Origin: Actinomycetes bacterium
GTDB lineage: Bacteria > Actinomycetota > Acidimicrobiia > Acidimicrobiales > Bog-793
NCBI GenBank assembly: GCA_021803215.1
Contig: JAJZLV010000049.1
Location: 1 to 42,258, forward strand
Direction: 5' to 3'
Length of the DNA stretch: 42,258 nt
Position numbers and translations under genes: made by a program. Below the pieces are notes generated by a model. It saw only the letters and a program-made list of their open reading frames with translations, had not been told where the DNA came from and made no database searches. The stretch's first letter is position 1. Every line of letters starts with the position of its first letter. This document shows, piece after piece, positions 990 to 40,693 of this stretch.

Positions 990-1023
990 CGTGCGACCAT
1001 CTCTGCGGTCTTAGACGGTGCGA

Positions 1024-1635
1024 TCATCCGCCGGCCCCCTCCGGGCCCGTCTCCGTCGCGCCGCCCGGCAGCCCGGCCGCCTGCCGGGCGGCCGCCATGA
1101 TGCGCGAATAGCTGCCACAACGGCACAGATGTCCACTGAAGACCCGGCGGATAGCGCTCTCGGTCGGGTGCGGCTGGGTGGCGAGCAGAGCCTCGAGAGC
1201 GAGGATGAAACCGGAGGTGCAGTACGAGCACTGGAACGCCCGGTGCTCGAGAAAGGCCTGCTGGACAGCGCTCAGCCGGCCGTCGGGTCCGCGGAGCCCC
1301 TCCACCGTTCGGATGTCGGCTCCTTCGCAGAGAACGGCGAGCGTCAAGCAGCCGCTGACGGCCCGGCCATCTCGAAGGACTGTGCAGGCGCCGCACATGC
1401 CCACTGCGCAGCCGTTGCGGGCGCCGACGAGCTTCAGTTCTCCCCGCAGCGCTTCAAGCAGCGTCTCTGTGGTGCGCACCTGAAGACGACAAGGTCGGCC
1501 GTTGACCGTGAGCTCGACCTGGACCCGCCCCAGGGCGTCCGGCTGTTTGACGCTGTCGAGCACATCTGCGGGAGGGACGGCCTCCAGCGGAGAAGCCTCG
1601 TCTGCTGCGGCGCCGGTCGGTGTACCCCTACCCAT
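1024..1635 (-). CDS. 2Fe-2S subunit of a molybdenum hydroxylase (CoxS/XDH small-subunit family)
   Basis: Small iron-sulfur subunit that relays electrons from the molybdenum centre to the FAD subunit. Using the ATG at 1635 gives 203 residues. The plant-type ferredoxin cysteines are C76, C81, C84 and C96 (GARNGCAVGMCGACTVL and GCLTL). The second, all-alpha cluster has C136, C139, C171 and C173 (FQCSYCTSG and HLCRCGSYSRI). The start was chosen because a strong GGAGGT ribosome site stands 8 bases upstream. The open frame runs further to 1863 but that extension looks non-coding. The N-terminus before the ferredoxin fold (residues 1-38) is longer than usual. In typical operons this gene follows the large subunit directly; here 777 bp intervene. 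Confidence 0.9.
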   Translation of the reverse strand: MGRGTPTGAAADEASPLEAVPPADVLDSVKQPDALGRVQVELTVNGRPCRLQVRTTETLLEALRGELKLVGARNGCAVGMCGACTVLRDGRAVSGCLTLAVLCEGADIRTVEGLRGPDGRLSAVQQAFLEHRAFQCSYCTSGFILALEALLATQPHPTESAIRRVFSGHLCRCGSYSRIMAAARQAAGLPGGATETGPEGAGG

Positions 1636-2412
1636 GGGACCTACCTCCAGGAGTTCTGGCCGACGCCTGTCCTGCGACGACCGACGCAAGTGGGCGACAC
1701 CAGAGGGAGGCTCCGACGGCTTCGGACCCCCGCCGGCGTCGTCCTGCCAGGAGCTGTCCGTCGCCACGGCACCCGGCCCGAGACCCGGTCGGTTCGGGAC
1801 GCCAGGAGGCGACTCGCCCGGTATCGGCCTCGACCGGGCCGAAGGGCTGCATCCCCTCGCCATCGGTCGCCCCGGCTAGGGAGTGATCGAGGCTCGGCGA
1901 GCCCATCGCCGGCGCGGGTCGATGGCAGCACTCGCCCGCGGCGTTGCGATGGCAGAGCCCGCTCCGGCCGAGGTGATGGCCGTGCCGGTCGGCCCCGAGC
2001 TCACCGCCCGGCGGCAAGTCCCGGCGAGGAGGAAGGACGGGACCGAGAAGGCACCTATGGCCCGCCTCGGAGGTCTCGATCACCATGAGCGGCTCGGACC
2101 CTTGATCCGCCGCCGCGAGATGGCGGCGCGCCGGGACGACCACCCGGGAGCAAGGGGGGAGCTGCCACGACGAGCGACGGCCCCACCGCTTCCTCGACAG
2201 CGCAGCCCCGCGGTCGGCGCTCTCCGGGCGCGGGCAGCTGGCCGGGGCCGGCGAGCTCCATGAGGCCCGTCCGGCTCGCCAGGCCACGCCCTGCGGCTTG
2301 GCCCGCCCCCCAAGCGGAACCGGGCCTATCGACTCGCGCCGGCCGGAGCCGCCGGCACCCGGAGCCTCGTCAAGAGCTCCCCCCCGCCCGAGAGGGGTCG
2401 ACAGAGCCTCTC
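1636..2412 (-). other. 777-bp stretch with no recognisable gene inside the hydroxylase operon
   Basis: This gap separates the large-subunit stop from the 2Fe-2S subunit start. One minus-strand open frame (2416 to 1628) fills it almost exactly. Its ATG overlaps the large-subunit stop as ATGA, and its TAG lies 6 bases inside the next gene. Its 262-residue product is rich in R, G, P, S and A and resembles no family I know. A second frame starting at 2261 begins MELAGPGQLPAPGER, which recalls the N-terminus of CoxG/SRPBCC accessory proteins common in such operons, but it loses that resemblance at once. The stretch may be a decayed accessory gene, a novel poorly conserved protein, or non-coding. 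I cannot decide from the sequence. Confidence 0.4.
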
Positions 2413-4795
2413 TCATGCCGGTGCTCCGGGGCCGCCGCCGCCACCAGCACCTGCGGCAGCAGCCTCAGCCCGCAGGCCGCGCAGGACCTTCTCGGCGCTG
2501 ATCGGCAATGAGTGGACCCGTACCCCGGTCGCCCGGTAGACCGCGTTGGCCACGGCTGGAGCGACGGGCGGCAGGGCCGGCTCACCGAGACCGTGGATCT
2601 CGCCGCGGCCGTCCTCGGCGAGATCGAAGCCGTACTGCTCGGGCATGTCCTCCAGGCTCGGGACCATGTAGTCCGCCAGGCTGGCGTTCGTCAGCTGGCC
2701 CCGGTCAAAGACAAGCTCTTCGAACAGGGCGTTGCCGACCCCGAAGACGAGGCAGCCCTCGCACTGGTGGTCGGCGCCGATCGGGTCGACGATCTCGCCG
2801 GCGAAGACGGCGCCTGCGTAGCGGAGGACTCGCACCCGGCCGGTAGCCAGGTCTACAGCGACCTCGGCGGCACCGACGGACTGGTGCCAGTGCGCCGAGC
2901 CGACCCCCTGGCCCGTGAACGGATCGAGGCCCCCATTCGTGACGAGGGTGCCGCCGCCGTGTACGTTGCCGACCCGGCTGCGGCCAACTACCTCGGCCAG
3001 GCTGAGGCGGCTGGCCGGGACCCCCGCCACCTGGACGTGCCCCTCTGTCACCTCGATGTCGGCTGGCTCGGCTTCGAGCAGCTCGGCTGCGAGGCCCCGC
3101 ACCTTCGCGACGAGGTCCTCCGTTGCCAGCTCGAGCGCCCGTCCCATGGAGGCCATAGAGCGGCTGGCGGTGGTCTGCTGGTCGTAGGGAGTGAGATCGG
3201 TGTCGACGTAGGAGACCGCGACGAGCTGGGGGTCGACGCCTGGCCGCCAGGGCTGGGCGGATGCCCTGGCCCATCTCGACCGAGCTCGTGAGCACGTCCA
3301 GGCTGCCGTCGGCGTTGAGCCGGATCGCCGCCGTCGAGGTCGACGGGGTGATCGTCCCTTCGATGACGCATGAGACGCCCTTGGCCCGGACGATGTCCCC
3401 GTCACGCTCGACCCCGGCGGCCGGGTCCCAGCCGATCCGCTCTGCCACGGTGTCGAGCAGCTCGTGGAAGTGGAGGTGCTCGAGCCTCTCGCCGGTGCAG
3501 AAGGTGTTCCCGTCTTTGAGCAGGTTCCGCCGGCGGAGCTCGACGGCATCGATCTGGAGGGCCTCCGCGATCATGTCCATCTGCTGCTCGTAGGCCCAGG
3601 CCGCCTGGTTGATGGCAAAGCCCCGGTAGGCGCCGGCAGGCGGCGTGTTGGTGCACACCGCTTCGACGTGGATGTCGACGTTCGGGATGGCGTACGGGCC
3701 GTTGATGCCGTAGGCACCGAACATCACCTTGCGCGGGCTGATGCCGGCATACGCGCCGGCGTTGTACCGGGCGAGAGCCTGGCGGGCGACGATCCGGCCC
3801 TCTTTCGTCACCGCGGTGCGGAGCCGGACCCGCATGGCGTGCTTGGTCGAGGTGACGAACTCCTCGTCGCGCGACAGGTGGATGCGCACCGGCGCACCGA
3901 CGAGGCGCGACGCAACGGCCGCCACCGGCTCGATGGCGGCATAAGCCTTGGCCCCGAACCCTCCCCCGAGCGCGGTCACCACCACCCTCACGCGGTTGAG
4001 CGGGACGCCGAAGAGAAGGGCCAGCTGCCGGCGGACGATGTGAGGTGTCTGGGTGGCGCTCCACACCGTTATCCGGTCACCGCGTGCGTCGGCCAGCACC
4101 ACGTGGGTCTCGAGTGGAGCGGCACCGGCCGCCGGGCTGTCGAAAGTGTGCTCGAACACGTGATCGGCCGAGGAGAAGGCGGCCGCGGCGTCGCCCCGGA
4201 CGACGCTGAACACGTTGCAGACGTTGCGCTCGTACTCAGCCCGGAGCGTGACGTCGACGAAGGCGGGGTCTCGCTCGGGCTCGGATGGGAACAACCGGGG
4301 CGCTCCGGGAGCCGTCGCCTCGTCGACGTCGAACACCGCCGGCAGATGGTCGTAGGTGACCTCCACGAGATCGGCCGCCTCCTCGGCGGAAAACGGGTCG
4401 TCGGCCACCACCAGGGCCACCGGCTCGCCGATGTAGCGGACCGTGTCGTAGGCCAGCACCGGTTGGTCGCGCACGACCGGCCCGAACTCGACCTGCATGT
4501 CGCCACGGGCAACGAGCTGGGCACCCGTGAGGACGCTCACGACCCCCGGGTGGCAAAGCGCTGGGTTCGTGTCGACGGCGACCAGCCGGGCATGTGCCGC
4601 GGTCGAGCGCACCAGCCGGCCATGTTGCATGCCGGGCAGTTCCTCGTTCATGACGAAGGGCGTCCGGCCAGTGACCCGGTCCTCCGCGTCAAGGAGGGAC
4701 GAGATCGCCACCTCCTGCTGTCGGGCCTGCAATGAAGTCCTCTCCGATTGGGCGTCCTGGGGCCGTCGTATCGCCGGTGGCACACATGATCGCAT
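2413..4795 (-). pseudogene. Molybdopterin-binding large subunit of a xanthine dehydrogenase-family hydroxylase, frameshifted
   Basis: Together two frames make one large subunit of about 790 residues, the normal family size. The first (from 4795 to about 3250) carries the a/b-hammerhead domain (DAEDRVTGRTPFV), the molybdopterin loop ALGGGFGAKAYAAIEP, PPAGAYRGFAINQ and SSVEMGQG. The second (from about 3250 to 2413) resumes at GVDPQLVAVSYVDTDLTPYDQQT and ends with IHGLGEPALPPVAPAVANA, holding the conserved catalytic glutamate of the GxGE type. The frame changes between 3241 and 3262, where only 22 bases separate MGQG from GVDP; as I recall relatives, about 11-13 codons are usual, so a small deletion is likely. 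AYRGF rather than AYxCSFR argues against a form I CO dehydrogenase. The start is uncertain: ATG at 4795 is the first, but real homology begins near 4700. A sequencing error remains possible. Confidence 0.8.
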
Positions 4796-4857
4796 GGTCG
4801 GCTAGCGCTTACCACCCGTCGCCACAGCATGGGCCACCTCGGCCGGGTTCTCGCCAG

Positions 4858-4882
4858 GCTGACGACTCAGTAACTCGTCAGC
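4858..4882. promoter_or_regulatory. Perfect 8-bp inverted repeat between divergent genes, candidate operator
   Basis: GCTGACGA (4858-4865) and TCGTCAGC (4875-4882) are exact inverse complements separated by 9 bases. The repeat lies in the 170-bp region between the divergent hydroxylase large subunit (start near 4795) and pncA (start 4966), a usual position for a dimeric repressor. The cognate regulator is not evident in the window. Confidence 0.4.
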
Positions 4883-4884
4883 GG

Positions 4885-4931
4885 CTGCCTGGCCAGCTGT
4901 CCGATAGCGGCTCTCGGTACCGGCCAGGCAG
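4885..4931 (+). promoter_or_regulatory. 10-bp inverted repeat able to form a leader hairpin before pncA
   Basis: CTGCCTGGCC (4885-4894) pairs exactly with GGCCAGGCAG (4922-4931) across a 27-base loop that contains a further CCGA/TCGG pair. It ends 34 bases before the pncA start. It could be a structured 5' leader, a terminator of an upstream transcript, or a second operator. No known riboswitch class is recognised. Confidence 0.35.
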
Positions 4932-4965
4932 TCGGAGCCGGCCCAAGTGCGCTAGAAACGCCCCG

Positions 4966-5586
4966 ATGGGCAAGCTCGCTTTGCTGGTGATCGACGTGCA
5001 GCTGGACTTCTGTCCCGGGGGGGCGCTCGCGGTGGAGAAGGGCGACGAGGTAGCCGCCGCCATCGCGGCCGATCTGTTGGGCCAAGAAGCCGGCTACGAC
5101 TACAAGGTGGCGACCCGCGACATGCACGTGGCACCGGGGGATCACTTCTCCGAGATGCCTGATTTCGTCGATTCGTGGCCGATCCACTGCCTGGCAGGCA
5201 CCCCGGGGGCTGAGCTGCACGAAGCCCTCGACTCTGTGAGGACAGAGTTCGACGCAATCTTCGACAAGGGCGCTTACCACGCTGCCTACTCCGGGTTCGA
5301 GGGCGCCGCACCCTCGGGCAGCACCCTCGGACCATGGCTCTCGGCCAGAGATGTGGACCGGGTCGACCTTGTCGGTCTAGCGACCGACTACTGCGTCCGG
5401 GCCACTGCCCTCGACGCCGCCGAGCTGGGCCTCGCCGTCCGCGTGCTCCTCGGATACACGGCCGGAGTGGCCACCAGCACCACGCTGAGCGCGATCGACC
5501 GCCTGAGGACCGCCGGGGTCGAGATCGTCGGTCCGACGACGGCCAACGGCATAACCTGGGCAGCCTCCATGGACAAAGAGGCCTGA
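4966..5586 (+). CDS. pncA: Nicotinamidase/pyrazinamidase
   Basis: Hydrolyses nicotinamide to nicotinate and ammonia, feeding NAD salvage; homologues also activate pyrazinamide. The 206-residue protein shows the catalytic triad D10 (VIDVQLDF), K101 (FDKGAY) and C143 (ATDYCVRATA). The metal ligands D52, H54, H60 and H74 sit in TRDMHVAPGDHF and WPIHCLAGTPGA, in the same spacing as mycobacterial PncA, and the YSGFEG motif is also present. The start MGKLALLVIDVQ at 4966 fits the family; the open frame continues upstream to 4732, but that part is unlike any PncA. No strong ribosome site precedes the ATG. The gene is divergent from the molybdenum hydroxylase operon, which might hydroxylate nicotinate or a related N-heterocycle. 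That link is only suggestive. Confidence 0.93.
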   Translation: MGKLALLVIDVQLDFCPGGALAVEKGDEVAAAIAADLLGQEAGYDYKVATRDMHVAPGDHFSEMPDFVDSWPIHCLAGTPGAELHEALDSVRTEFDAIFDKGAYHAAYSGFEGAAPSGSTLGPWLSARDVDRVDLVGLATDYCVRATALDAAELGLAVRVLLGYTAGVATSTTLSAIDRLRTAGVEIVGPTTANGITWAASMDKEA

Positions 5587-18142: not shown

Positions 18143-21022
18143 TCAGCTCCCGGCGGAGCTCTTCGTGAGCGTCGACTCCAGGGCTGCCACGGCGGGGGAG
18201 AAAGGCAGGCCGAGCTCCTCGGCCATGGCTCGGGCTCTCGACAGGACCGCCGCGGCGGCCGCAGGCCGCCCGGCGCCGGCGAGCAGTCCGGCCAGGGAGA
18301 GGTAGCGCCCCTCGTCGGTCGGGTCGGACTCGATGCCGACCCGCAGGCAGGCCTCGGCCTCGGCCTCGACCCCCTCGGCGCGCGCCGCGGCGGCCCAGGC
18401 GTCGAGCAGGCGCAGCCGGAAGCGTCGCAGGCGCTCGCGGGCGCTGGCGGCCCACAGCTCGTAGCGCTCCTCCGGCAGGAACTCCCCCCCGTAGAGGCGG
18501 GCGGCCGCCCTGGCCTGGCGCCGGGCGGCCGGGCCGTCCTCGCCGGCCGTGAGCGCCAGCACGGCCTGACGGGCCGCGGCCTCGAAACGCTCTGAATCGA
18601 GGCCCACCCCGCCGGCCAGCACCAGCTCCTGGCCGGCTCGGACCACGATCGGCCCGGCGGAGCGATGCAACCGAGCGAGCACGTTGCGCAGCCGGCGTCG
18701 GCCCCGCTCGCTCCCCACTCCCGGCCAGAGCTCCTCCACGGCCTGCTCCACGTGGAGGAGGCCGCCTTCGGCCACCACCAGCTTGAGAAGGAGGGCGACC
18801 TGCGGGGCCAGGTGCACCCGCTGGCCCCGGCGGCGTACCTCGAAGCGGCCGAGCGTCTCGACCGAGGCCCACGGCTCCTTCTCCGGGCCGGCCGGCTCGC
18901 CCAGCTGCCCGGCGCTTGCCCTCGCCACCGCCACGGCCGGCTCGAGGGCGGCGCCGCGCCGCTCGATCTCGTCCGCCTTCGCCCCGAGCGCCTCTCTCGC
19001 CGGCGCCAGGGCCAGCTCGACACGGGCGTCCCAGCCCACCGGGAGCCTGATCCCGACCCTCTCCTCGAGGGCGGCGGCCAACCCGGCCAGCTCCAGCGCC
19101 ACCACCGGGAGCTGGCCGGCCAGCGTGGCGGAGAGGACCAAGAGGCAGAAGGCCAGGCTGCGCTCGTCGCCCAGCTCGAGGAAGACTGCGGCTGCCTCGC
19201 AGGCGTCGTCGCGGCCGCAGTGGTGGTCTTCTAAGTAGTAGCGGGCGATGGCGCGGTGCAAGAGGCTCGTGGCCCGGCCGTGGCGATCGCCGAGCGCCAC
19301 CTGGGCGGCCACAGCAGCCCCGAGAAGCTGGCAGGCCTCCTCGAGGCGCCCCTCCTCGATGGCGACCAGGGCCAGGTTCGCCGAGATGGCGGCCACCTCG
19401 CCAGGTGAGCCGAGCCGCTCCAGCTCGGCCCGGCTGTGCTCGAAGCGCCGCCCCGCCAGGGCGACCTCCCCGGCGAAGAGCGCCACCAGACCGAGATGGT
19501 TGCCGAGGCGCGCCGCCTCGCGGGCCTCTCCGGAGCTCCTGGCGAGCACCAGCGCCTCCTCGAGGGCCGCGGTCGCGACGAGGTGGTCGCCCTGGCGCCA
19601 GGCGAGCATCCCCAGGCCGTCGAGCAGGTGGGCCCGCAGCCCGGCCGGGAGCGAGCCCTGCGCCAGCACCCGCTCCAGCCAGTGGCGGCCCTCTGAGAGC
19701 TGTCCTCGCAGCTCCCAAAACCGCCACAGCTGGCAGGCGAGGGCCCCGGCCGCCTTCTCGTCGCCGGCCTCGAGCGCGAAGCCGAGGGCGGCCCGCAGGT
19801 TGGCCTGCTCACCAGCCACGAGCTCGAGGAACCTCGCCTGATGGGGCCCGCTGATAAGGGCCTCTTCGGCCCCGGCGACCAGCTCCGAGCACCAGGCGAG
19901 CTGCAGCCGGGCGAGCCCCTCGAGGCGACCCTTCCGCTCGAGGCCAGCCTGGACGTGGCGGCGCACCACCCCGAGCAGGTCGTAGCGGGCGACACCGTGC
20001 GCGACGCTCATCGAGACGACCGACTTCTCGACCAGCCCGGCAAGGCACTCGACCAGCCCGGGTCGCACACCGACCCGAGCCGGCAGGCTGGCCAGCGCCG
20101 CCAGGTCGGCCCCCCCGACGAAGACCGACAGCACCTCGAGCAGCCGGCGCTCCCTCTCCGAGAGGAGCCCAAAGCTCCACTCCAAGGCGGTCTCCAGGCT
20201 CCGATGGCGGGCCGGACCGGCCGGCCGGCCGCCGGAGCCGGCGGGGGCGACCCCCTCCTCGACTGCGTCGGCCAGCTGCTCCAGGCTGAGCCTCTTGGCG
20301 CTCGGGGCGACGAGCTCCAGCGCGAGGGGAAGCCCGTCGACATGGCGGCAGATGCGGGCGATCGCCGCCGCCCCCGAGTCGTCGATCGCCAGGCCGGGAC
20401 AGGCGGCTCGTGCCTGGGCGGCGAAGAGCTCCACGGCCCCGTAGGCGAGCAGGCTCTCGCGGCCGAGCTCTCCCGCCTCAGGCACCGCCAGCGGGCCGAG
20501 ACGAAAGACGTGCTCGGAGGCAAGGCCGAGAACCCGCTGGCTGGTGGCGAGCACCCGCAGGCCTGGACAGGCGCGCAGCAGGGCCTCGACGAGCCCCTTC
20601 ACGCCGGCCACCAGGCGCTCGCAGCCGTCGAGGAGGAGCAGCGTCTCGCCCTCCGAGAGGGCGCGCACCACGGCCGAGTGCAGATCGGTGGCGGCGTGCT
20701 GGCCGAGCACGGCCCCCGCCAGGGCCTCGAGCGCCAGAGCGGGCTCTCCCAGGCCCTCCAAGTCGACCAGCACCACCCGCCGGGCGAGCCGCTCCGAGAC
20801 TCGCCTGGCAGTCTGGCGCGCCAGCCGGCTCTTGCCCACCCCGCCCGGGCCGGTCACCGTCACGAGGCGGGCATGGGCCAGCTCCTCTGACAGGGCTGCC
20901 AGCTCCACCTGTCGACCGACGAAGTCGCTCTCCCCGAGGCGTCCGGGCCCTTCCTGCGAGCGCTGCGGCCGCGGGGCAGTCTCGATGCCGAGAGCGGCCG
21001 GAGTCGCGCGAGCCTCGCCCAC
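18143..21022 (-). CDS. NB-ARC/TPR transcriptional regulator with C-terminal SARP-type DNA-binding and BTAD domains
   Basis: A 959-residue signal-transduction ATPase (STAND class). It opens with FVGRQVELAALSEEL, then Walker A GPGGVGKS at 58-65, a Walker B-like LLLLDGCERL near 131-140, and ATSQRVLGLASEHVFRLGPL (the usual NB-ARC sensor stretch). A GLPLALELVAP motif and about 350 residues of TPR-like helices follow. From about residue 710, VETLGRFEVRRRGQRVHLAPQ begins an OmpR-like winged helix (LLHVEQAVEELWPG), then a bacterial transcriptional activator domain (YGGEFLPEERYELWAASARERL). AfsR proteins carry this DNA-binding module at the N-terminus; here it is at the C-terminus. GTG 21022 is the chosen start, without a strong ribosome site. 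Targets are unknown; candidates are the adjacent accessory genes. Confidence 0.88.
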   Translation of the reverse strand: MGEARATPAALGIETAPRPQRSQEGPGRLGESDFVGRQVELAALSEELAHARLVTVTGPGGVGKSRLARQTARRVSERLARRVVLVDLEGLGEPALALEALAGAVLGQHAATDLHSAVVRALSEGETLLLLDGCERLVAGVKGLVEALLRACPGLRVLATSQRVLGLASEHVFRLGPLAVPEAGELGRESLLAYGAVELFAAQARAACPGLAIDDSGAAAIARICRHVDGLPLALELVAPSAKRLSLEQLADAVEEGVAPAGSGGRPAGPARHRSLETALEWSFGLLSERERRLLEVLSVFVGGADLAALASLPARVGVRPGLVECLAGLVEKSVVSMSVAHGVARYDLLGVVRRHVQAGLERKGRLEGLARLQLAWCSELVAGAEEALISGPHQARFLELVAGEQANLRAALGFALEAGDEKAAGALACQLWRFWELRGQLSEGRHWLERVLAQGSLPAGLRAHLLDGLGMLAWRQGDHLVATAALEEALVLARSSGEAREAARLGNHLGLVALFAGEVALAGRRFEHSRAELERLGSPGEVAAISANLALVAIEEGRLEEACQLLGAAVAAQVALGDRHGRATSLLHRAIARYYLEDHHCGRDDACEAAAVFLELGDERSLAFCLLVLSATLAGQLPVVALELAGLAAALEERVGIRLPVGWDARVELALAPAREALGAKADEIERRGAALEPAVAVARASAGQLGEPAGPEKEPWASVETLGRFEVRRRGQRVHLAPQVALLLKLVVAEGGLLHVEQAVEELWPGVGSERGRRRLRNVLARLHRSAGPIVVRAGQELVLAGGVGLDSERFEAAARQAVLALTAGEDGPAARRQARAAARLYGGEFLPEERYELWAASARERLRRFRLRLLDAWAAAARAEGVEAEAEACLRVGIESDPTDEGRYLSLAGLLAGAGRPAAAAAVLSRARAMAEELGLPFSPAVAALESTLTKSSAGS

Positions 21023-30520: not shown

Positions 30521-30886
30521 CTAGCTGGCTATGACGACCGCCGAGGCCGTCTCGGCGGTGTGGGTGAGCGAGAGGGCGAAAGCGGCCACCCCCTGCTCTC
30601 TCGCCAGCACGGCCGCCCGGCCGCCGAGGCTCAGCTCCGGGGCGCCGCTTGCCAGCCGGCGAACCTCGACGTCGCCGAAGCCGAAGGCACCGAGCCCGAC
30701 GCCGAGAGCCTTCATGGTGGCCTCCTTAGCCGCGAAGCGGGCCGCAAGCCCGGGCACCGGGTCGTGGCGGCCTGAGAGCGAGAGCCGCTCGTACTCGGTG
30801 AAGAGGCGCTCTCGCACCTTCGGGCGGCGCTCCAGCAGGCGGCGGAAGCGGTCGACCTCTACGAGGTCGATGCCGACCCGGATCAC
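30521..30886 (-). CDS. acpS: Holo-[acyl-carrier-protein] synthase
   Basis: Transfers 4'-phosphopantetheine from CoA to acyl carrier protein. The 121-residue protein begins (GTG) MIRVGIDLVEVDRFRRLLER with metal ligand D7 and continues with RFAAKEATMKALGVG, where the second ligand glutamate lies, ending FALSLTHTAETASAVVIAS. The GTG start at 30886 overlaps the glmS TGA as GTGA. The frame continues far upstream only as an antisense-like shadow of glmS. Confidence 0.94.
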   Translation of the reverse strand: MIRVGIDLVEVDRFRRLLERRPKVRERLFTEYERLSLSGRHDPVPGLAARFAAKEATMKALGVGLGAFGFGDVEVRRLASGAPELSLGGRAAVLAREQGVAAFALSLTHTAETASAVVIAS

Positions 30887-32724
30887 TCGACCGTTACCAC
30901 CTTTGCCAGGTTGCGCGGCCGGTCGACGTCGTTGCCGCGCTCCCGGGCGACCGCGTAGGCGAGCAGCTGGAGCGGGACGACTGCCACGACCGGCGTCAGG
31001 AGCTCCTCGGTCGGCGGCACCTCGAGGACCAGCTCGACCAGGCCGGCCGTCTCGGCGTCGCCCTCGTCGGTCACCGCCACGACCGTCGCCCCGCGCGCCC
31101 GCAGCTCTTCGATGTTGGCGAGCAGCTTGGGCCAGAGCGGTCCCCGGGTGGCGACCACGACCGCCACGGAGTGGCGGTCGATGAGCGAGATCGGGCCGTG
31201 CTTCATCTCGCCCGCCGCGTAGGCCTCGGCCCGGACGTAGGCGAGCTCCTTCAGCTTGAGGGCGCCCTCGAGGGCGATCGGGTAGCCGATGTTGCGGCCG
31301 AGGAAGAAGACGTCGTTCACGCCCGAGAGCTCTTCGGCCACCTTCTCGTAGCGCTCCGCCTTCCCGAGGGCCTCTTCGACGAGGCCGGGGAGGGCCTCGA
31401 TGGCACCGGCCAGCCGGGCCGCCTCCTCGGGCGGGAGCGCCCGGCGGATCCGCGCCAGGTGGAGAGCGAAGAGCTGGACGAGCAGGATCTGGGCGACGTG
31501 GCACTTGGTCGAGGCGACGCCGATCTCCGGCCCGGCCCGGGTGTAGAGGACGCCGTCTGCCTCTCTCGCCATGAGCGAGTCGACGACGTTCGTGATCACC
31601 AGGGTGCGCCCGCCCCTTCTTCTCGCCTCCCTCAGAGCATGGTAGGTGTCGACCGTCTCGCCAGACTGGCTGATCGCGACTACGAGCGTCGAGCCGTCGA
31701 GGACGGGCGAGCGGTACCGGAACTCGCTGGCGATCTCGGCGTGGGCGGGGATGCGGGCCCACTGCTCGAGCGAGGCCGCCCCGATGTAGCCGGCGTGGTA
31801 GCTCGAGCCGCAGGCGATCACGACCACCCGCTCGATCGAGGCCAGCTCCTCGTCGCTGAGAGCCAGCTCCTCGAACTCGGTGAGGCCGTCGTGGACCCGC
31901 CCGATGAGCGTGTCGGCGAGAGCCCGGGGCTGCTCGTGGATCTCTTTCGACATGAAGTCCTCGTAGCCCTCGCGCCGGGCCGCCTGGACGCCCCACGAGA
32001 CCCTGATCGGCGTCGGCTCGAGCGGCTGGCCGTCGCGGTCGACCACCTCGACCGAGCCGGGCCCGACGGCGGCCACCTGGCCGTCTTCGAGGGCGTAGAG
32101 CTCCCGGGTGGTCTCGAGGAGCGCCGAGATGTCGGAGGCCACCACCCCGAGCCCTTCGGCCCGCCCGACTATGAGAGGTGAGGTCTGCCGGGTGGCGACG
32201 ATGAGGTCGGGCTCGCCGGCAGAGACGATCGCCAGGGCGAAGTCGCCCCGCAGCCTCCGAGAGCAGCGCTGCACCGCCTCGAACAGGCCGGCGCCCCCGG
32301 CGAGCTCCTCTTCGACGAGGTGGGCCACCACCTCGGTGTCGGTCTGCGAGCTGAGAGTGTGGCCGCCAGCGACCAGGGAGGCCGAGAGCTCCCTGTAATT
32401 CTCGATGATGCCGTTGTGGACGACGGCGACCTCTCCCCGGCAGTCGAGGTGGGGATGGGCGTTCTTCTCGGTCGGAGCCCCGTGGGTGGCCCAGCGGGTG
32501 TGCCCGATCCCCGCCCGGGCGGCCGGCGGGTCGGCGGCGGCCTTGAGCTCTGGGATCGACTGGGCTCGCACGGCGGCCCGGGAGCGCCAGATGCCGCCGG
32601 ACTCGCTCGGGTTGACGAGCGCCACCCCGGCCGAGTCGTAGCCTCGGTACTCGAGGAGCGTGAGGCCGTCGAGGAGGGCGCCGAACGGATCGTCGCTGCC
32701 GGTGAAGCCGATGATCCCGCACAT
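30883..32724 (-). CDS. glmS: Glutamine-fructose-6-phosphate aminotransferase (isomerising)
   Basis: Makes glucosamine-6-phosphate from fructose-6-phosphate and glutamine, the first step to UDP-GlcNAc. The 613-residue protein starts MCGIIGFTG with the N-terminal nucleophile Cys2 after methionine removal, and has EYRGYDSAGVAL and GHTRWATHG of the glutaminase domain. Two SIS sugar-binding domains include VIACGSSYHAGYIG and ISQSGETVDT. The C-terminus RPRNLAKVVTVE is canonical. First gene of the tightly packed run ending in tsaD. Its partner glmM is 6.6 kb away, across an insertion. No glmS ribozyme is seen in the 160-bp upstream gap. Confidence 0.97.
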   Translation of the reverse strand: MCGIIGFTGSDDPFGALLDGLTLLEYRGYDSAGVALVNPSESGGIWRSRAAVRAQSIPELKAAADPPAARAGIGHTRWATHGAPTEKNAHPHLDCRGEVAVVHNGIIENYRELSASLVAGGHTLSSQTDTEVVAHLVEEELAGGAGLFEAVQRCSRRLRGDFALAIVSAGEPDLIVATRQTSPLIVGRAEGLGVVASDISALLETTRELYALEDGQVAAVGPGSVEVVDRDGQPLEPTPIRVSWGVQAARREGYEDFMSKEIHEQPRALADTLIGRVHDGLTEFEELALSDEELASIERVVVIACGSSYHAGYIGAASLEQWARIPAHAEIASEFRYRSPVLDGSTLVVAISQSGETVDTYHALREARRRGGRTLVITNVVDSLMAREADGVLYTRAGPEIGVASTKCHVAQILLVQLFALHLARIRRALPPEEAARLAGAIEALPGLVEEALGKAERYEKVAEELSGVNDVFFLGRNIGYPIALEGALKLKELAYVRAEAYAAGEMKHGPISLIDRHSVAVVVATRGPLWPKLLANIEELRARGATVVAVTDEGDAETAGLVELVLEVPPTEELLTPVVAVVPLQLLAYAVARERGNDVDRPRNLAKVVTVE

Positions 32725-32884: not shown

Positions 32885-35365
32885 TCAGGCGCCTGCCCCG
32901 ACCAGGCCGTGGGAGAGAGCCCACCTGGCCGCTGCGACCCGGCCGCTCGCTCCCAGCTTGCGGTAGATGCTCTCCAGGTGGTGCTCGACCGTGCGCACCT
33001 TGAGCCCGAGCGATCCGGCGATCTCCTTGGTCGACGAGCCGAGAGCCAGCAACCTCAGCACCTCGGCCTCCCGCTCCGTGAGGCCGCCCGGGAGCGGGGA
33101 GCGGGCAGCCTCCCCGGTCTCGGCGAGGGCGGCCCGGCTCTTGTTGAGCCCGGTCAGGTTCCCGGTGGCGGCTGCCAGGGCCTCTGCCTCCCGCAGGCGA
33201 TCGAGCGCCGCGGCCCGCCGCCCGAGACGGGAGAGGGCACGACCCATCCCGATCAGCGCCACCACCTCGTCGTGGGGGTTGCCCCCCTTGCGGATGGCCT
33301 CGAGCGAGGCCTCGAAGTGCGAGAGGGCCGCATCCTGGTCGCCTCTCGCGGCCGCCAGCTCGCCGAAATTGGCTGCGAGCGAACCGTCGAGCTGCGGGTT
33401 CCCGAGCTCGCCGGCCATGGCGCTCGCCTCCTCGAGCACCCCCTCGGCCTCGTCGAGGCGGCCCTGGCGGACCAGCACGGTGGCGTAGTTGGAAAGGCCG
33501 ACGGCGAGCGAGCCCTTGCTCTTGAGACGGCGCTTGGCCGAGATCGAGTCGGAGAAGAGCCGGGCCGCCTCCTCATACGAGGCGGCGTCGAGGGCGAGCA
33601 GGGCGAGGTTGTTGAGCGCCACGGCGATCCCCCGCTCGTCGGCCAGCTTGCGCCTGAGCGCCAGGGCCTCCGAGAAGGCCGCCCGCGAGCCCTCGACGTC
33701 GTCCAGGTAGCGGCAGGCGGAGCCTATGACCGTGGCCGCCATGGCCGTGTCGGCCAGCCGGCCGTGGCGCTCGAAGGTCCGCTTGGCCCGCGCCGCCCGC
33801 GAGCGGGCCTCGTGATAGGCGCCGTGCTCGGCCGCCAGCACGGCGGCGGCGCAATTCGCCCGGGCCACGAGCTCGTCGTCCCGCCCGCCCGCCAGCGAGA
33901 GGAAGGACCCGAGCTCTGCCCGCCCGAGCACCAGCCGGCCGCTCGCCAGCCACCAGGGCCAGAGGGCGGTCGCCGCCTCGAGCCCCTCTTCGAGCCGGCG
34001 CTCGGCCGCCAGGTGGTGGAGGGCCACCTCGATGTCCGGCCAGGCGAGGGAGAGGTGCTCGGCCCGCGAGAGGGCGCCCGGCGCGAGCATCGCCTGGCCG
34101 CCTGACCGGGCGATGGCGGCGAAGTGCCCGGCGTGCCGGGTGCTGGCCGCCTTGGAGAGGGCCTCGTCCATCTGGGAGGAGACGAACGCTCGCATCGTCT
34201 CGAGCATCTGGAAGCGGTTGGCCGCCACACCCGGGCGGACGACGAGAAAGGAGGAGTCGACCATCTGGCGGAGCAACCGGGCCGCCTCGACCGGCTCCGA
34301 GGCGGTGATCGCCGCGGCGTCGTCCAGCTCGAACGAGCCCCGGATGACCGAGAGCTGGGCGATGAAGTCCTGCTGCTCAAAGGTGAGCAGCTGCCAGCTC
34401 TGGGCGAGAACCTCGCGAAGCCCGCTCGCTTGGCCGGACGGCTCCGCCTCGAGCAGGAGGCTGGCCCGCTCCAGGATCTCGTTGACAGACAGGGTGCCGG
34501 CCCAGCCGGCCATCAGCTCGATGGCGAGCGGGAGGCCGTCGAGGCGGTGGCAGAGAGCTGCCAGCTTGCCGGCTTCGAGGTCGGTCGGCTCGAGACGGGG
34601 AAGGCGCTCCCGGGCGCGGGCGAGAAAGAGCCGGACCGCCTCCGAGGAGAGCACGGCATTCACCGGAGCCCCGGGGTCCGGACAGGAGAGGGGGCCGAGG
34701 GGGAAGACGACCTCGCCTGCCACCTCGAGCACCCGGCGAGAGGTGACGACGATGCGGCACTCGGTCGTCTCCCGCAAAAGTCGCGAGACGAGCTCGGCGA
34801 CTGCGTCGCGCCAGCGCTCCGCCCCGTCGAGGACGAGGACGGAACCGGCCCCCTCCACTGCGAGCGCCACCGCCTCGAACGGCTCGGCCCCGGGCCGGTC
34901 TCGCACCTTCAGCTCGGCGGCGACGGCGCTCAGCAGCCCCTCCTCCTCGGGAACGGGCTCGAGCGCCACGAATGCCGGCCTGGCGCCATCGCCGCACCGG
35001 ACCACCTCGGTCGCCAGCCTCGTCTTTCCGACTCCGCCCGGGCCGACGACGGTGACGAGCCGGTTCTCGTCGAGCAACCGCTCGAGCTCGGCCATCTCCG
35101 CCTGGCGCCCGACGAAGCTCGTGAGAAAGCGGCTCTCGAGCCTGGCCGGCCGCCCGGCCGGCCGGCTCCGCTCGAGCTCCGCCAGGCGCTTCAGCCCACC
35201 GGCCGAGATCCTCGCCTTGCCGCTCTCCCAGCGGTTGACGGTGACGAACGAGACACCGATCTCCCGGGCGAGCTGCTCCTGGGTCAGGCCGAGCGCCTGG
35301 CGGAGGTGGCGAACGCGCTCGGCCAACCCCGCTTCGTCCGGAAGGTCCGTCGCGCGGCCGCCCAC
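32885..35365 (-). CDS. Large regulator: XRE HTH, NB-ARC ATPase, TPR, LuxR HTH
   Basis: An 826-residue STAND-class regulator with two DNA-binding domains. The N-terminal XRE-type HTH (about residues 15-60) includes LRQALGLTQEQLAREIGVSF and VNRWESGKA. The NB-ARC ATPase follows: FVGRQAEMAELERLL, Walker A GPGGVGKT, Walker B-like VLVLDGAERW, VTSRRVLEVAGEVVFPLGPL and LDGLPLAIELMAG. A TPR region spans roughly residues 430-740. The C-terminal LuxR HTH reads LTEREAEVLRLLALGSSTKE onward. GTG 35365 was chosen because a TATAAG box lies 43 bases upstream; the open frame extends to 35590 with ATGs at 35590 and 35509, but its product there looks non-coding. It is divergent from the secreted repeat protein, its likeliest target. 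Confidence 0.88.
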   Translation of the reverse strand: MGGRATDLPDEAGLAERVRHLRQALGLTQEQLAREIGVSFVTVNRWESGKARISAGGLKRLAELERSRPAGRPARLESRFLTSFVGRQAEMAELERLLDENRLVTVVGPGGVGKTRLATEVVRCGDGARPAFVALEPVPEEEGLLSAVAAELKVRDRPGAEPFEAVALAVEGAGSVLVLDGAERWRDAVAELVSRLLRETTECRIVVTSRRVLEVAGEVVFPLGPLSCPDPGAPVNAVLSSEAVRLFLARARERLPRLEPTDLEAGKLAALCHRLDGLPLAIELMAGWAGTLSVNEILERASLLLEAEPSGQASGLREVLAQSWQLLTFEQQDFIAQLSVIRGSFELDDAAAITASEPVEAARLLRQMVDSSFLVVRPGVAANRFQMLETMRAFVSSQMDEALSKAASTRHAGHFAAIARSGGQAMLAPGALSRAEHLSLAWPDIEVALHHLAAERRLEEGLEAATALWPWWLASGRLVLGRAELGSFLSLAGGRDDELVARANCAAAVLAAEHGAYHEARSRAARAKRTFERHGRLADTAMAATVIGSACRYLDDVEGSRAAFSEALALRRKLADERGIAVALNNLALLALDAASYEEAARLFSDSISAKRRLKSKGSLAVGLSNYATVLVRQGRLDEAEGVLEEASAMAGELGNPQLDGSLAANFGELAAARGDQDAALSHFEASLEAIRKGGNPHDEVVALIGMGRALSRLGRRAAALDRLREAEALAAATGNLTGLNKSRAALAETGEAARSPLPGGLTEREAEVLRLLALGSSTKEIAGSLGLKVRTVEHHLESIYRKLGASGRVAAARWALSHGLVGAGA

Positions 35366-35407
35366 GCCCCGGAGCGTACTCAGATGCGCCCGAGCGTGAC
35401 GGGCCGT

Positions 35408-35413
35408 CTTATA
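35408..35413 (-). promoter_or_regulatory. Candidate -10 box for the XRE/LuxR regulator
   Basis: TATAAG on the minus strand stands alone in a GC-rich divergent region, 42 bases before the GTG start. No good -35 box is seen 16-18 bases upstream. Confidence 0.3.
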
Positions 35414-35574
35414 GCACGACCGGCCGAAGACCACTGTGAGGGCCCGAACAAGCACCAACAGTGTCAGAACCAGGCGGAGTTGTCGGCATCGGTGGCGGAA
35501 CTCCCCCATCGACCGGCCCCTTTGCTGAGAGTTCGCTTGAGGCTGGAGCAGCCTGTGAAGAGGGGGACAGCAAG

Positions 35575-38500
35575 ATGGCGTCGTGCGCACCTGGCAAGCG
35601 AGGGCTCGGCTTCATGAGCCGGCTGGCGGTCGGACTCGTCACAGCTCTCTCCACCATGCTGATGACCGGTGGGATGGCGGCGGCCTCGGCCGCCCCGAGC
35701 AGCCCCTCCGCCAGCGTGGTGGCCCGCCGCCATCACCCGGCCCCGCACCGGCTCCCGGAAGGCCACAGCAAGCCCCGCCGGGCCATCAAGCCGGTCGTCT
35801 CGTCGTTCTCCGCTCACCCCTCGAGGCTCGGCGCCAAGGGGGGGTTCGTCACCCTCACCGGCCGCGTCCTCCATGCCTCCGGCTGCATCGTCACCGCAAC
35901 GCCGCACCTGGGCGGCTTCCCGCGGCACTTGAAGTGCTCGAACGGCATCGTGCGGACGAGGCTGAAGCTGCCCGCCAGCTCGCTCGCGACCGGGCGGAAG
36001 TTCTCTTTCACCCTGAAGGCGGTGAACGGCCGTCTCGCAGGATCCAAGACGACAGCCGTGCTCGAACGACCGGCTCCGCCGACAGCAGGGGGCCTCGTCG
36101 CCCAGCCCTCGACCCTCGCCTCGGGCGGCGGGAGCATCCTTCTTTCCGACCATGTCTCCCGGGCGCATAGCTGCCGCTTCTCCTCCTCGCCGTCACTGAG
36201 CGGCCTCCCGAAGACGGTCGCCTGCAAGAGCGGTACCGTCAGCCTCAGAGTCTCTATCCCGGCCAGCACGAAGGCGACGAGCTACCAGTTCGCGCTCGAG
36301 GTGAGCGGGCCGGGCGGAAGCCTCTCTCGCACGACGGCGGCCGATCAGTCGGGACCGGCGGCTCCTCTCGTCGGAACGGTGACAGCTGATCCGACTGCAC
36401 TCGGCGTCTCGGGCGGCTCGGTCGCCCTCTCGACGGCCGTCACGGACGCCACCAGTTGCACCTACTCGGTCTCGCCGGCGATCGCAGGCTTCTCGGGCAG
36501 CGCTCCGTGCTCGTCGGGCACGGCGGCCTTGTCGGTCAGCATCCCGGCCAACCAGACGGCGAACGCCGAGACCTACTCCTTTACTCTCACCGCCAGCGGG
36601 CCGGGCGGCACGACCTCATCTGCCGGTTCCGCCAAGGTGACCGTGGCCGCCCCTCTCCCGACGGTCGGTGCTGTCACCGCCAGCCCGGCCACCCTGGCAG
36701 CCGGCGGCGGTTCGATCTCCCTCTCGACCCCGGTCACGAGCGCCACCAGCTGCACCTACTCGGTCTCGCCTGCGATCACGGGCTTCTCGGGCACCACGCC
36801 GTGCTCGTCGGGCACGGCACAGTTGTCGGTCGCCGTCCCGGCCAACCCGACGGCAAGCGCGGTCAGCTACGTCTTCTCGCTGACGGCAACCGGCTCGGGC
36901 GGGACGACCGGCTCCTCGCAGTCGGCCACCGTCACCGAGGCGGCCGCGCCGCCGACGGTCGGAGCGGTCGAGGCGAAGCCGAGCACGCTCGCCTCGAGCG
37001 GCGGCTCTGTCTCTCTCACGACGAGCGTGTCGAACGCCAGCAGTTGCACCTACTCGGTCTCGCCGGCGATCACGGGCTTCTCGGGCACCGTCTCCTGCGC
37101 CTCGGGGACCGCCTCGTTGTCGGTCACCCTGCCGTCCAACACGACGGGGAGCACGGAGAGCTACACCTTCTCGCTTGTTGCCAGCGGGCCGGGCGGCACG
37201 ACCTCCTCGCTCAGCCCCGCCAACGTCGCGGTCGAACCGCCGGCACCGACGGTCGGAGCGGTGACGGCGAGCCCGACGGCTCTCGCCTACGCCGGCGGCT
37301 CTGTCTCTCTCACGACGAGCGTGTCGAACGCCAGCAGTTGCACCTACTCGGTCTCGCCGGCGATCACGGGCTTCTCGGGCGCCACCTCGTGCTCGTCGGG
37401 CACGGCACAGTTGTCGGTCGCCGTCCCGGCCAACCCGACGGGGAGCGCGGTCAGCTACGTCTTCTCGCTGACGGCGACGAACTCGGGCGGGACGACCGGC
37501 TCCTCGCAGTCGGCCACCGTCACCGAGGCGGCCGAGTTCTCCCTCGCCTGGTCCTCGGGGAGCTCGCCCGAGCCGCCGCCGGTCGACTACACGCTGATCT
37601 CCTGTCCGACCACGGGCTTTTGCGCCGCCGCCGACACCTCGGCCGGGAACGTCGTCACCGTCTCCGGGTCCTCCTGGTCGCGCCCGACCCAGATCGAGAA
37701 GACGACCGGCAACCAGATCATCACGCTCTCGTGTGCCAGCAGCTTGCTCTGCCTGGCGAGCGACGGCTCGACTCTCTGGCTGTACAACGGGACGAGCTGG
37801 TCGGCCACCACCCCACCCAGCGCGCTCGGGAGCTACATCGATCAGATCTCGTGCGCCCCAGGGGGCGATTGCACGGTGATCGGGGGCAGCACCGCGAGCG
37901 GGGGCGCCGTGGAGAGCACCACGAACGGGAGCAACTGGCAGGCCGAGGCGTCGCTCCCGTCGGGCTACAACCCCGACTACCTCAGTTGCCCCTCCTCGAC
38001 GGCCTGTGACGCCCTCTTGGTCAGCCAGTCCTCGGGCTCGCTCTCGTTCGACACCTTCACCCCGACGGCGGGCTGGACCCCCGGCCCCAGCCTCCCGAGT
38101 GGGACCATCGTCTTCAACTTCTCGTGCGGGACGGCCATTTTCTGCGCCCTGACCGCCGCTTCCTCAGGTTCGAACCCCGACTTCTTCGTCTACAACGGCA
38201 ACTCCTGGACGGCCGAGAACCCGAGCGGTGTCGAGCTGCTCACGCTCAACTGCACCTCGGCCAGCCAGTGCTTCAGCTCCGAGGTCGACCCGACCACAGG
38301 AGCCCAAGGCGTCTGGCAGTACAGCGCCAGCACCACCTCTTGGGGCGCCCTTGCCGACGGGACACCGCCGCTCACCGCGAGCGGAAGCGGCCTCTCGTGT
38401 GTGTCGAGCTCGTTCTGCGGCGGCGTGTCCGGTGGTATGGGCGAGGTGCTGCAACAAGGCGCCTGGACCTCGGCGACCCTCGGTTGGCAGAACACCGTCA

Positions 38501-39333
38501 CGGCCATCTCCTGTCCGACGGCCAGCTTCTGCATGGCCGGCGACTCCGGGGGGGACTTCGAGACCTACGACGGCACTAACGGCACCTGGAGCTCTCCTGT
38601 AGCCGGGCCGGTGGCCAGCGGAGACTTCGGAGGGATCAGCTGTCCGAGCGCCACCTTCTGCGCCGCTGTCATCTCCGGTGCACTCGCCACCTGGAGCTCG
38701 AGCTCTGGGAGCTGGACCGTGAGCAGCCTCGCCATTACCCCCAGCCCAGTTGGCCAGGGCGGGGTGAGCTGTACCAGCTCCAGCTTCTGCGTGGCCGTCT
38801 CGGGCTCCCAGGCATCGATCTACGACAACGGCACCTGGGCCTCCCCGAGCAGCATCGACTCGACCAACGGCGACCTTGCGAGCGTCTCCTGCACGAGCAC
38901 CACCTACTGCGTGGCGCTCGACGCGAGCGGGGCGGTCCTCACCTACAACGGCACCTGGGGCTCCCCGAGCAGCATCGACTCGGCGGCGCAGCCCTACTAC
39001 TTGGCCAGCATCTCTTGCATCACCGCCGGGGTCTGCGTGGCCGTTGACCAAGACGGGAACGCCGAGATCCTGCAAGGCGGCAGCTGGTCGAGCCCGACCC
39101 AGCTCGCCGGCGGCGGCGCGCTCGGCGAGGTCGCTTGCAACGCGACAGCCGGCGACTGCGTGATCTCAGGGCAAGGCGGCGTCTACTACGTGCAAGAGAC
39201 GGGCGGCAGCTACGCCTTCAACCAGACGCCTGAATCGGTCGGAGCTCCCGGCGACTACTGGTCGCTCGTGTCGTGCAGCGCCTCGAGCTGCGTGGTGGTG
39301 TCGGAGGAGAACACCGCCGAGTACGGCTCCTGA
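35575..39333 (+). CDS. Secreted repeat protein: six Ig-like modules and fourteen two-cysteine propeller-like motifs
   Basis: A 1252-residue exported protein. ATG 35575 follows an AGAGGGGG ribosome site and opens a signal peptide with a hydrophobic core RLAVGLVTALSTMLMTGGMA and a likely cut after AAASA. About six Ig-like modules of 95-98 residues follow, each with a cysteine pair (type SCTYSVSPAITGFSG then PCSSGTA). The C-terminal half (from about residue 670) has 14 motifs of the type (I/V)SC-P/T-S-x-x-F-C-A/V-A separated by about 40 residues, often with YNGxxW. Fourteen suggests two seven-bladed beta-propellers with a disulfide per blade. No LPXTG, C-terminal TM anchor or enzymatic motif is seen. 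Adhesion, glycan binding or surface coating are possible but unproven roles. Regulation may come from the divergent regulator. Confidence 0.88.
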   Translation: MASCAPGKRGLGFMSRLAVGLVTALSTMLMTGGMAAASAAPSSPSASVVARRHHPAPHRLPEGHSKPRRAIKPVVSSFSAHPSRLGAKGGFVTLTGRVLHASGCIVTATPHLGGFPRHLKCSNGIVRTRLKLPASSLATGRKFSFTLKAVNGRLAGSKTTAVLERPAPPTAGGLVAQPSTLASGGGSILLSDHVSRAHSCRFSSSPSLSGLPKTVACKSGTVSLRVSIPASTKATSYQFALEVSGPGGSLSRTTAADQSGPAAPLVGTVTADPTALGVSGGSVALSTAVTDATSCTYSVSPAIAGFSGSAPCSSGTAALSVSIPANQTANAETYSFTLTASGPGGTTSSAGSAKVTVAAPLPTVGAVTASPATLAAGGGSISLSTPVTSATSCTYSVSPAITGFSGTTPCSSGTAQLSVAVPANPTASAVSYVFSLTATGSGGTTGSSQSATVTEAAAPPTVGAVEAKPSTLASSGGSVSLTTSVSNASSCTYSVSPAITGFSGTVSCASGTASLSVTLPSNTTGSTESYTFSLVASGPGGTTSSLSPANVAVEPPAPTVGAVTASPTALAYAGGSVSLTTSVSNASSCTYSVSPAITGFSGATSCSSGTAQLSVAVPANPTGSAVSYVFSLTATNSGGTTGSSQSATVTEAAEFSLAWSSGSSPEPPPVDYTLISCPTTGFCAAADTSAGNVVTVSGSSWSRPTQIEKTTGNQIITLSCASSLLCLASDGSTLWLYNGTSWSATTPPSALGSYIDQISCAPGGDCTVIGGSTASGGAVESTTNGSNWQAEASLPSGYNPDYLSCPSSTACDALLVSQSSGSLSFDTFTPTAGWTPGPSLPSGTIVFNFSCGTAIFCALTAASSGSNPDFFVYNGNSWTAENPSGVELLTLNCTSASQCFSSEVDPTTGAQGVWQYSASTTSWGALADGTPPLTASGSGLSCVSSSFCGGVSGGMGEVLQQGAWTSATLGWQNTVTAISCPTASFCMAGDSGGDFETYDGTNGTWSSPVAGPVASGDFGGISCPSATFCAAVISGALATWSSSSGSWTVSSLAITPSPVGQGGVSCTSSSFCVAVSGSQASIYDNGTWASPSSIDSTNGDLASVSCTSTTYCVALDASGAVLTYNGTWGSPSSIDSAAQPYYLASISCITAGVCVAVDQDGNAEILQGGSWSSPTQLAGGGALGEVACNATAGDCVISGQGGVYYVQETGGSYAFNQTPESVGAPGDYWSLVSCSASSCVVVSEENTAEYGS
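36364..37539 (+). repeat. Four tandem 294-bp repeats encoding 98-residue Ig-like modules
   Basis: Equivalent positions recur at exact 294-bp steps: module starts at 36364, 36658, 36952 and 37246, and the Cys-Thr-Tyr motif at 36454, 36748, 37042 and 37336. Long stretches are identical at the DNA level, so duplication or gene conversion is recent. Two more diverged modules lie upstream (35.8-36.36 kb) and are out of the 294-bp register. Confidence 0.9.
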
Positions 39334-39361: not shown

Positions 39362-40693
39362 TCAGCCGAGCTCGTCTCGTACGACGGCCGCCAGCCGTTC
39401 GGCCATGGCGCTCGCCTTCTCGTCGCTCGTCGCCTCGACCATCACCCGGACGCACGACTCGGTGCCGCTCGAGCGGAGCAGCACCCTGCCCGAGCTCCCG
39501 AGCTCTTCTCGCACGGCGTCGGTCTCTCGCCACACCCGGTCGGCATCCGAGAGGCGGTCGGTGTCTGGCACCGGGACGTTCAAGAGAACCTGCGGGAGGC
39601 GCACCATGGCCGAGGCGGCCAGCTGCCCGAGAGGCTCTTGGGCCCGGCCGAGCAGGTCGATGAGCTTGACGGCGGTGAGCAGGCCGTCCCCGGTCGGCGA
39701 GTGGCGCCGGAAGATGATGTGGCCGGACTGCTCGCCTCCGAGGGAGTAGCTGCCGGCCTCGAGGGCGTCGGCCACGTGCCGGTCCCCGAGGGGCGTCTCG
39801 ACCGTCTTGATACCGAGCCCGCCGAGCGCCCGGTGAAGCCCGAGGTTGCTCATCACCGTCACCACGACCGTCTCGTTGTCGAGCTCCTTGGCGCCCAGCA
39901 TGTCGGCCGCGAACAGAGCTATGAGCTGGTCGCCGTCGACGAGCCGTCCCTCCTCGTCGACGGCCAGCATCCTGTCGGCGTCGCCGTCGAAGGCGATCCC
40001 CAAGGTGGCGCCCCGGCGCAAGACCTCCCGCTGCAGAGCCTCGGGGTGCGTCGAACCGCAGCCGGCGTTGATGTTCCGCCCGTCTGGGCTGGCATGAAGG
40101 AGCCGGTGGCTGAGCTCGAGCCGCTCGAAGACCTGCCGGGCCACCTCGAAAGCCGCCCCGTTGGCACAGTCGATCACGACCTCGCCGGCCGGCCTCTTTC
40201 CTCCGAACAGCCCCGCCAGGGCCTCGGCGTAGCGGGAGAGGGTCTGGCGGTCCGACTCGATCGGCCCGACCGCATCGGGGTCGGAGCCTCCCGCCCCCCA
40301 CTCCAGCAGCTTCTCGAGCTCGGCCTGGACGGCCGCCTCGGCTTCGAGCGAGAGCTTCGAGCCCTCGGGCGAGAAGAGCTTGATGCCGTTGTCGCGGTAG
40401 GGGTTGTGCGAGGCCGAGATGACGGCGGCCGGCGCCTGGCGCTCCCGGGCCGCCCAGGCGACGCCGGGGGTCGGGATGACTCCGAGGTCCACCACCTCCC
40501 GCCCCTCCGATGAGAGGCCGGCCGAGAGGGCCGCCTGCAGCAGGGGACCGGAGATCCGGGTGTCGCGCCCGATCAAAAAGGGGCCGGCGGAAAGGGTGCG
40601 AGCGGCCGCCCGACCGAGCGCCAGGGCGATCTCGGGCGTCAGCTCCGAGTTGGCGACGCCCCGGATCCCGTCGGTGCCGAACCGAGGGGGCAA
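39362..40693 (-). CDS. glmM: Phosphoglucosamine mutase
   Basis: Interconverts glucosamine-6-phosphate and glucosamine-1-phosphate for UDP-GlcNAc. The 443-residue protein starts RFGTDGIRGVANSELTPE and has the phosphoserine loop VISASHNPYRDNGIK (S95). The metal loop FDGDADRML, the sugar loop GGEQSGHI and the phosphate loop RSSGTESCVRVMVEA complete the active site. The start is a TTG at 40693 with GGAGAG just upstream; it begins 13 bases after rpsI, so it is probably co-transcribed with rplM and rpsI. It converges with the secreted repeat protein with a 28-bp gap. Confidence 0.96.
   Translation of the reverse strand: MPPRFGTDGIRGVANSELTPEIALALGRAAARTLSAGPFLIGRDTRISGPLLQAALSAGLSSEGREVVDLGVIPTPGVAWAARERQAPAAVISASHNPYRDNGIKLFSPEGSKLSLEAEAAVQAELEKLLEWGAGGSDPDAVGPIESDRQTLSRYAEALAGLFGGKRPAGEVVIDCANGAAFEVARQVFERLELSHRLLHASPDGRNINAGCGSTHPEALQREVLRRGATLGIAFDGDADRMLAVDEEGRLVDGDQLIALFAADMLGAKELDNETVVVTVMSNLGLHRALGGLGIKTVETPLGDRHVADALEAGSYSLGGEQSGHIIFRRHSPTGDGLLTAVKLIDLLGRAQEPLGQLAASAMVRLPQVLLNVPVPDTDRLSDADRVWRETDAVREELGSSGRVLLRSSGTESCVRVMVEATSDEKASAMAERLAAVVRDELG

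Follow-up and report, generated by a model that had tools for sequence, protein, structure and literature searches.

In STAND proteins, the nucleotide is normally a switch cofactor and not the signal that is sensed. STAND regulators are autoinhibited until they are activated by an inducer together with ATP, as described for AfsR (PMC10936776), and a family of LAL regulators has also been described (PMC3282765). The extracellular propeller of the plant protein CRINKLY4 is secreted and has seven repeats, and every blade carries a pair of cysteines (PMC4617170).

Here we compare these systems with a divergent gene pair that lies between glmM and glmS in the window (the whole stretch of DNA that was analyzed, a 42-kb contig from a 2.64-Mb draft genome). 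One gene encodes a regulator (REG) and faces away from the other, which encodes a large protein that is predicted to be secreted (SEC). The coordinates and the contents of this pair are as a sequence-only reading of the window had given them (Table 1). The best reading of the evidence is that REG-SEC is a real accessory locus, at the level of the genus, in a permissive gap between glmM and glmS. It is a local arrangement and not a widespread new system. The literature that we searched contains no account of this locus or of the propeller family that is represented by SEC. Rfam yielded no credible RNA (one sub-threshold miRNA match was put down to chance), a scan with the sigma-70 consensus returned zero promoters, terminator-like sites were near the chance level, plasmid records gave no match, and scans for viral contigs gave nothing relevant (the lone match was an unrelated tail-fibre-like repeat protein).

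Table 1. Positions in the window of REG, SEC, the spacer between them and the flanking genes.
Feature	Position	Strand	Remarks
glmS	30883..32724	-	Downstream flank; conserved -10-like TAGCCT 7 nt before ATG
REG	32885..35365	-	826 aa; XRE-STAND-TPR-LuxR; GTG start; from Pfam and homolog alignment
Divergent REG/SEC intergenic region	35366..35574	.	Alignment with sister species
Candidate -10 of REG, TATAAG	35408..35413	-	TATAAA in sister species; inference from alignment
Candidate operator TGGCGGAACTCCCCCAT	35493..35509	.	17 bp; identical in sister species; imperfect palindrome TGGCGGA-AC-TCCCCCA
SEC	35575..39333	+	1252-aa predicted secreted protein; homolog in sister species
SEC predicted signal peptide, MASCAPGK...MAAASA	35575..35691	+	Read from sequence
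SEC six tandem ~98-aa repeats	35806..37560	+	Two invariant Cys each, 17 residues apart
SEC fourteen ~42-aa blades	37573..39330	+	One CX5C-type Cys pair each; two predicted 7-bladed propellers
glmM	39362..40693	-	Other flank; convergent with SEC

Like AfsR, MalT, and SCO0877/SCO7173, REG combines a STAND/NOD ATPase with a TPR region and a DNA-binding domain. It also shares a C-terminal LuxR helix-turn-helix (HTH) with MalT and the LAL proteins, but it differs from AfsR, MalT and the LAL proteins by an extra HTH of the XRE type at its N terminus. The presence of two DNA-binding domains, which had been claimed earlier, is borne out by Pfam: HTH_3 matches the N-terminal domain (E = 1.9e-12) and GerE matches the C-terminal domain (E = 8.8e-18, or 64 bits against a cut-off of 23.5). 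Between them are the ATPase (AAA_16, E = 3.2e-7; NB-ARC, E = 4.7e-5; both are slightly below the curated cut-offs) and the TPR region (TPR_12, E = 1.2e-18). The STAND motifs are a Walker A motif (GPGGVGKT, which is kept in three homologs with V/I variation), a Walker B-like VLVLDGAE, a sensor VTSR, and GLPLAIEL. So REG has the P-loop STAND/NB-ARC-type ATPase with Walker A, the LuxR/GerE HTH and the TPR-type region of the STAND/LAL proteins. Because a STAND protein normally uses the nucleotide to switch and does not take it as its cue, the description of REG as "nucleotide-sensing" was unwarranted and should be dropped.

We aligned REG with its homologs from the sister species (66%) and from genome G007 (47%), and we placed its start at 35365, a GTG, since the ATG of the sister gene aligns with that codon. 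We sampled 107 STAND ORFs of over 350 aa (the sister gene is counted twice, under two locus ids), and only the sister gene had both types of HTH at the threshold used. The REG-SEC locus is a clean, small test case for this double-HTH STAND architecture, because its two genes come with a single candidate operator and a single exported product. (The window also encodes a second STAND-type regulator, at 18143-21022 on the minus strand, which has AAA, TPR and C-terminal BTAD (SARP-type) domains. Its domain order is inverted relative to AfsR.)

SEC begins at the ATG at 35575, which aligns with an ATG in the sister species. A His/Arg-rich linker separates the signal peptide from the ~98-residue repeats. 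These repeats may be Ig-like, given their length, their strand-like sequence and their cysteine pairs. In the putative mature protein, all 40 of 40 cysteines are paired in the sequence of the repeats and blades, and the two cysteines per blade that the sequence-only reading had pointed out are present in each of the 14 blades. The protein looks secreted, as had been proposed, since it has a predicted signal peptide. The proposed surface location is not supported beyond this: by sequence reading we found no LPXTG motif or transmembrane anchor at the C terminus (which ends in ...VSEENTAEYGS), so SEC may be released.

No model from Pfam or NCBIfam passed its cut-off for SEC, and there was no match to WD40. 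Searching the PDB by sequence gave no match for SEC; its relatives had weak PDB matches only, and they likewise matched other propeller models weakly. We modeled blades 8-14 with AF2, using blades 1-7 as a second row of the alignment, and obtained a pLDDT of 75.5 and a pTM of 0.81. (A model of all 14 blades from the single sequence had a pLDDT of 39 and was discarded.) The best PDB matches to the model of blades 8-14 were 7-bladed WD40 domains, with Z = 27 and an rmsd of 2.6 over 271 of 283 residues. RRP9 (4jxm), a Thermomonospora WD40 protein (5yzv), the designed nvWrap-T (7bie) and AIP1 (1nr0) all had Z of 26-27, with an rmsd of 2.6-2.8 over 265-273 residues. By prediction, blades 8-14 close into a WD40-like propeller of seven blades with four strands each. 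AIP1 resembles SEC further in having two 7-bladed propellers, as is predicted for SEC. However, these WD40-type propellers are only 7-13% identical to SEC in sequence, and SEC differs from them in its predicted secretion and in its one cysteine pair per blade. CRINKLY4 also has a cysteine pair per blade, but this is an analogy only, which does not draw on sequence: its motif is CX10C, and it belongs to a receptor kinase.

Of the 296 genomes that were sampled from the class, 7 encode a propeller of the SEC type (E <= 1e-20), and the window's own genome is one of these. In complete relatives, the uninterrupted runs of the blade motif peak at 7 (12 cases) and at 14 (10 cases), which is independent evidence for seven-bladed propellers. 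This family, with a CX5C pair in each blade and blades in multiples of seven, is common in some of these uncultured actinobacteria and appears to be undescribed.

We now turn to the site. The gene order rplM-rpsI-glmM-glmS-acpS-nnrD-alr is conserved across the family, and the gap between glmM and glmS is just 36-110 bp in 21 genomes of the family from outside the window's genus. This agrees with the earlier view of the pair as an accessory insertion. In three other genera (G007, G010, and G008; loci L088, L090, and L091), the gap is filled by unrelated single genes, which are all antisense to glmM and glmS. The product is a putative membrane protein in G007 and a small predicted secreted protein in G008, neither of which has a Pfam match, and an S9 peptidase in G010. 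These unrelated genes suggest that the gap accepts DNA freely. Furthermore, a genus-mate of G008 (G024) has no inserted gene in its gap, so this spot has been filled repeatedly. Its occupation by unrelated genes in other genera also fits a possible, though less favored, explanation for REG and SEC: they could be two unrelated accessory genes that became neighbors by chance, with REG acting only on distant targets or on itself.

The gap may tolerate insertions because of the promoter of glmS. All 19 of the 19 genomes compared, whether or not their gap is occupied, have TAGCCT (or a variant that differs by one base) 6-8 nt ahead of the glmS start codon. The position and conservation of this element suggest that it is probably the -10 element of a leaderless promoter. 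With its own -10-like element just before the start codon, glmS need not be disturbed by the inserted DNA, and the glmM-glmS gap is an example of how a promoter at the start codon could make the gap upstream tolerant of insertions. We considered whether the insertion breaks a glmM-glmS operon and rejected this because of the conserved element. The sequence-only reading had the insertion splitting glmS from glmM; a gene pair does intervene, but glmS is not cut off. REG and glmS are codirectional and are 160 bp apart in the window (about 63 bp in the sister species), which would also be expected if the insertion had re-wired glmS, so that REG and glmS formed a transcription unit and amino-sugar synthesis followed the promoter of REG. 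We consider this improbable, as the -10-like element in all 19 genomes indicates that glmS probably has a leaderless promoter of its own.

The pair seems to be common to both genomes of the genus, at the same site between glmM and glmS. In the sister species (G001, JAJYQK010000131.1, "Actinomycetes bacterium isolate DS4.bin24"), glmS, REG and the start of SEC are on one contig, while SEC and glmM are on another. The ends of these contigs share an overlap of 265 bp but are only 87.5% identical in it, which suggests that they are from different haplotypes or copies, so the adjacency of REG and SEC in the sister is inferred. The window's genome has a single copy each of REG and SEC, and its further matches to REG are distant paralogs.

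The spacer between REG and SEC is just 52.8% identical between the two species overall, yet it contains a perfect run of 17 bp (TGGCGGAACTCCCCCAT). A run of 17 was reached in 19 of 20,000 shuffles of the columns of the spacer alignment. No second copy of the run, at up to 1 mismatch, occurs in the genome of the window or of the sister. This run is a candidate operator, with the caveat that a comparison of two species cannot fully separate an operator from slow divergence. At 66-82 bp ahead of the SEC start, the run is nearer to SEC than to REG, which favors SEC as the target. Two observations argue against neighbors by chance: both genes are kept together, and divergent, in both species, and the most conserved block of their spacer is a near-palindrome that is absent elsewhere in the genome.

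Our preferred explanation, which we hold to be moderately probable, is that REG and SEC form an accessory pair at the level of the genus, in which REG controls SEC as its target, and that the pair was inserted in a permissive gap ahead of the glmS promoter. As a STAND switch like those of the MalT, LAL and AfsR proteins, REG would be inactive until its ligand is present. The ligand, probably a sugar, a peptide or a protein partner, would be bound by the TPR region, and ligand-bound REG would undergo ATP-dependent activation. Active REG might then use its LuxR domain (perhaps also the XRE domain) to bind the 17-bp palindrome between the two genes and control SEC, and possibly itself. SEC would be exported as an extracellular, disulfide-stabilized binding protein, in which a stalk of six Ig-like repeats carries the two 7-bladed propellers. 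A more specific version, which is improbable, is that the unusual double-HTH switch responds to a cue from outside the cell or from the envelope and activates just one secreted product, a disulfide-rich double-propeller binder, as a genus-specific module. Given the location of REG between glmM and glmS, such a cue might be related to cell-wall amino sugars or muropeptides.

Outside the genus, we did not find co-occurrence of this regulator and the propeller in related genomes, although both genomes within the genus have the two together, so the conserved co-occurrence that the earlier reading had set as its test is borne out only within the genus. First, just 3 of 35 genomes of the family have homologs of REG at E <= 1e-60, namely both genomes of the window's genus and G007. 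In G007, the homolog adjoins ribonuclease J-like and ftsK-like genes (names from sequence reading), with no SEC or other propeller gene. That the only other close homolog of REG lacks SEC is consistent with neighbors by chance. (In this homolog, at L087 10685-10850, an apparent frameshift and a TAG in frame break the XRE-coding sequence, so that the XRE HTH seems to be lost; a caveat to this apparent loss is that the G007 assembly is a draft with gaps.) Second, no ORFs with propeller blades were found at 80 STAND loci from the named genome collection (1.35 Mb in total), which include the sister locus, cut before its blades. Third, the genes upstream of about 55 SEC-type ORFs in relatives are unrelated, with no consistent regulator among them, which again is as expected for chance neighbors.

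These neighborhoods also bear on the idea of a general surface-expression system, which they leave unsupported, as propeller genes outside the genus have no consistent regulator beside them. It would be very improbable that SEC belongs to a widespread system whose type of regulator varies by lineage. The expansion of the propeller family in some relatives would fit this idea, and so would L105 in G054, the one locus among the ~55 where a propeller gene is beside, and divergent from, a MalT-like AAA-TPR-LuxR regulator. But a rough calculation gives about 0.15 cases expected by chance, so this single case is not significant, and the genes upstream of the other propeller genes are unrelated.

The L105 protein (289-5490, on contig G054:C34) is of the SEC type with 7 blades, and its arrangement is possibly due to chance. 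Two-cysteine propeller proteins are greatly expanded in some relatives (L112-L155; G054, G042, and others). G054 alone has more than a dozen such ORFs, with motif runs of up to 28 and without a curated family name.
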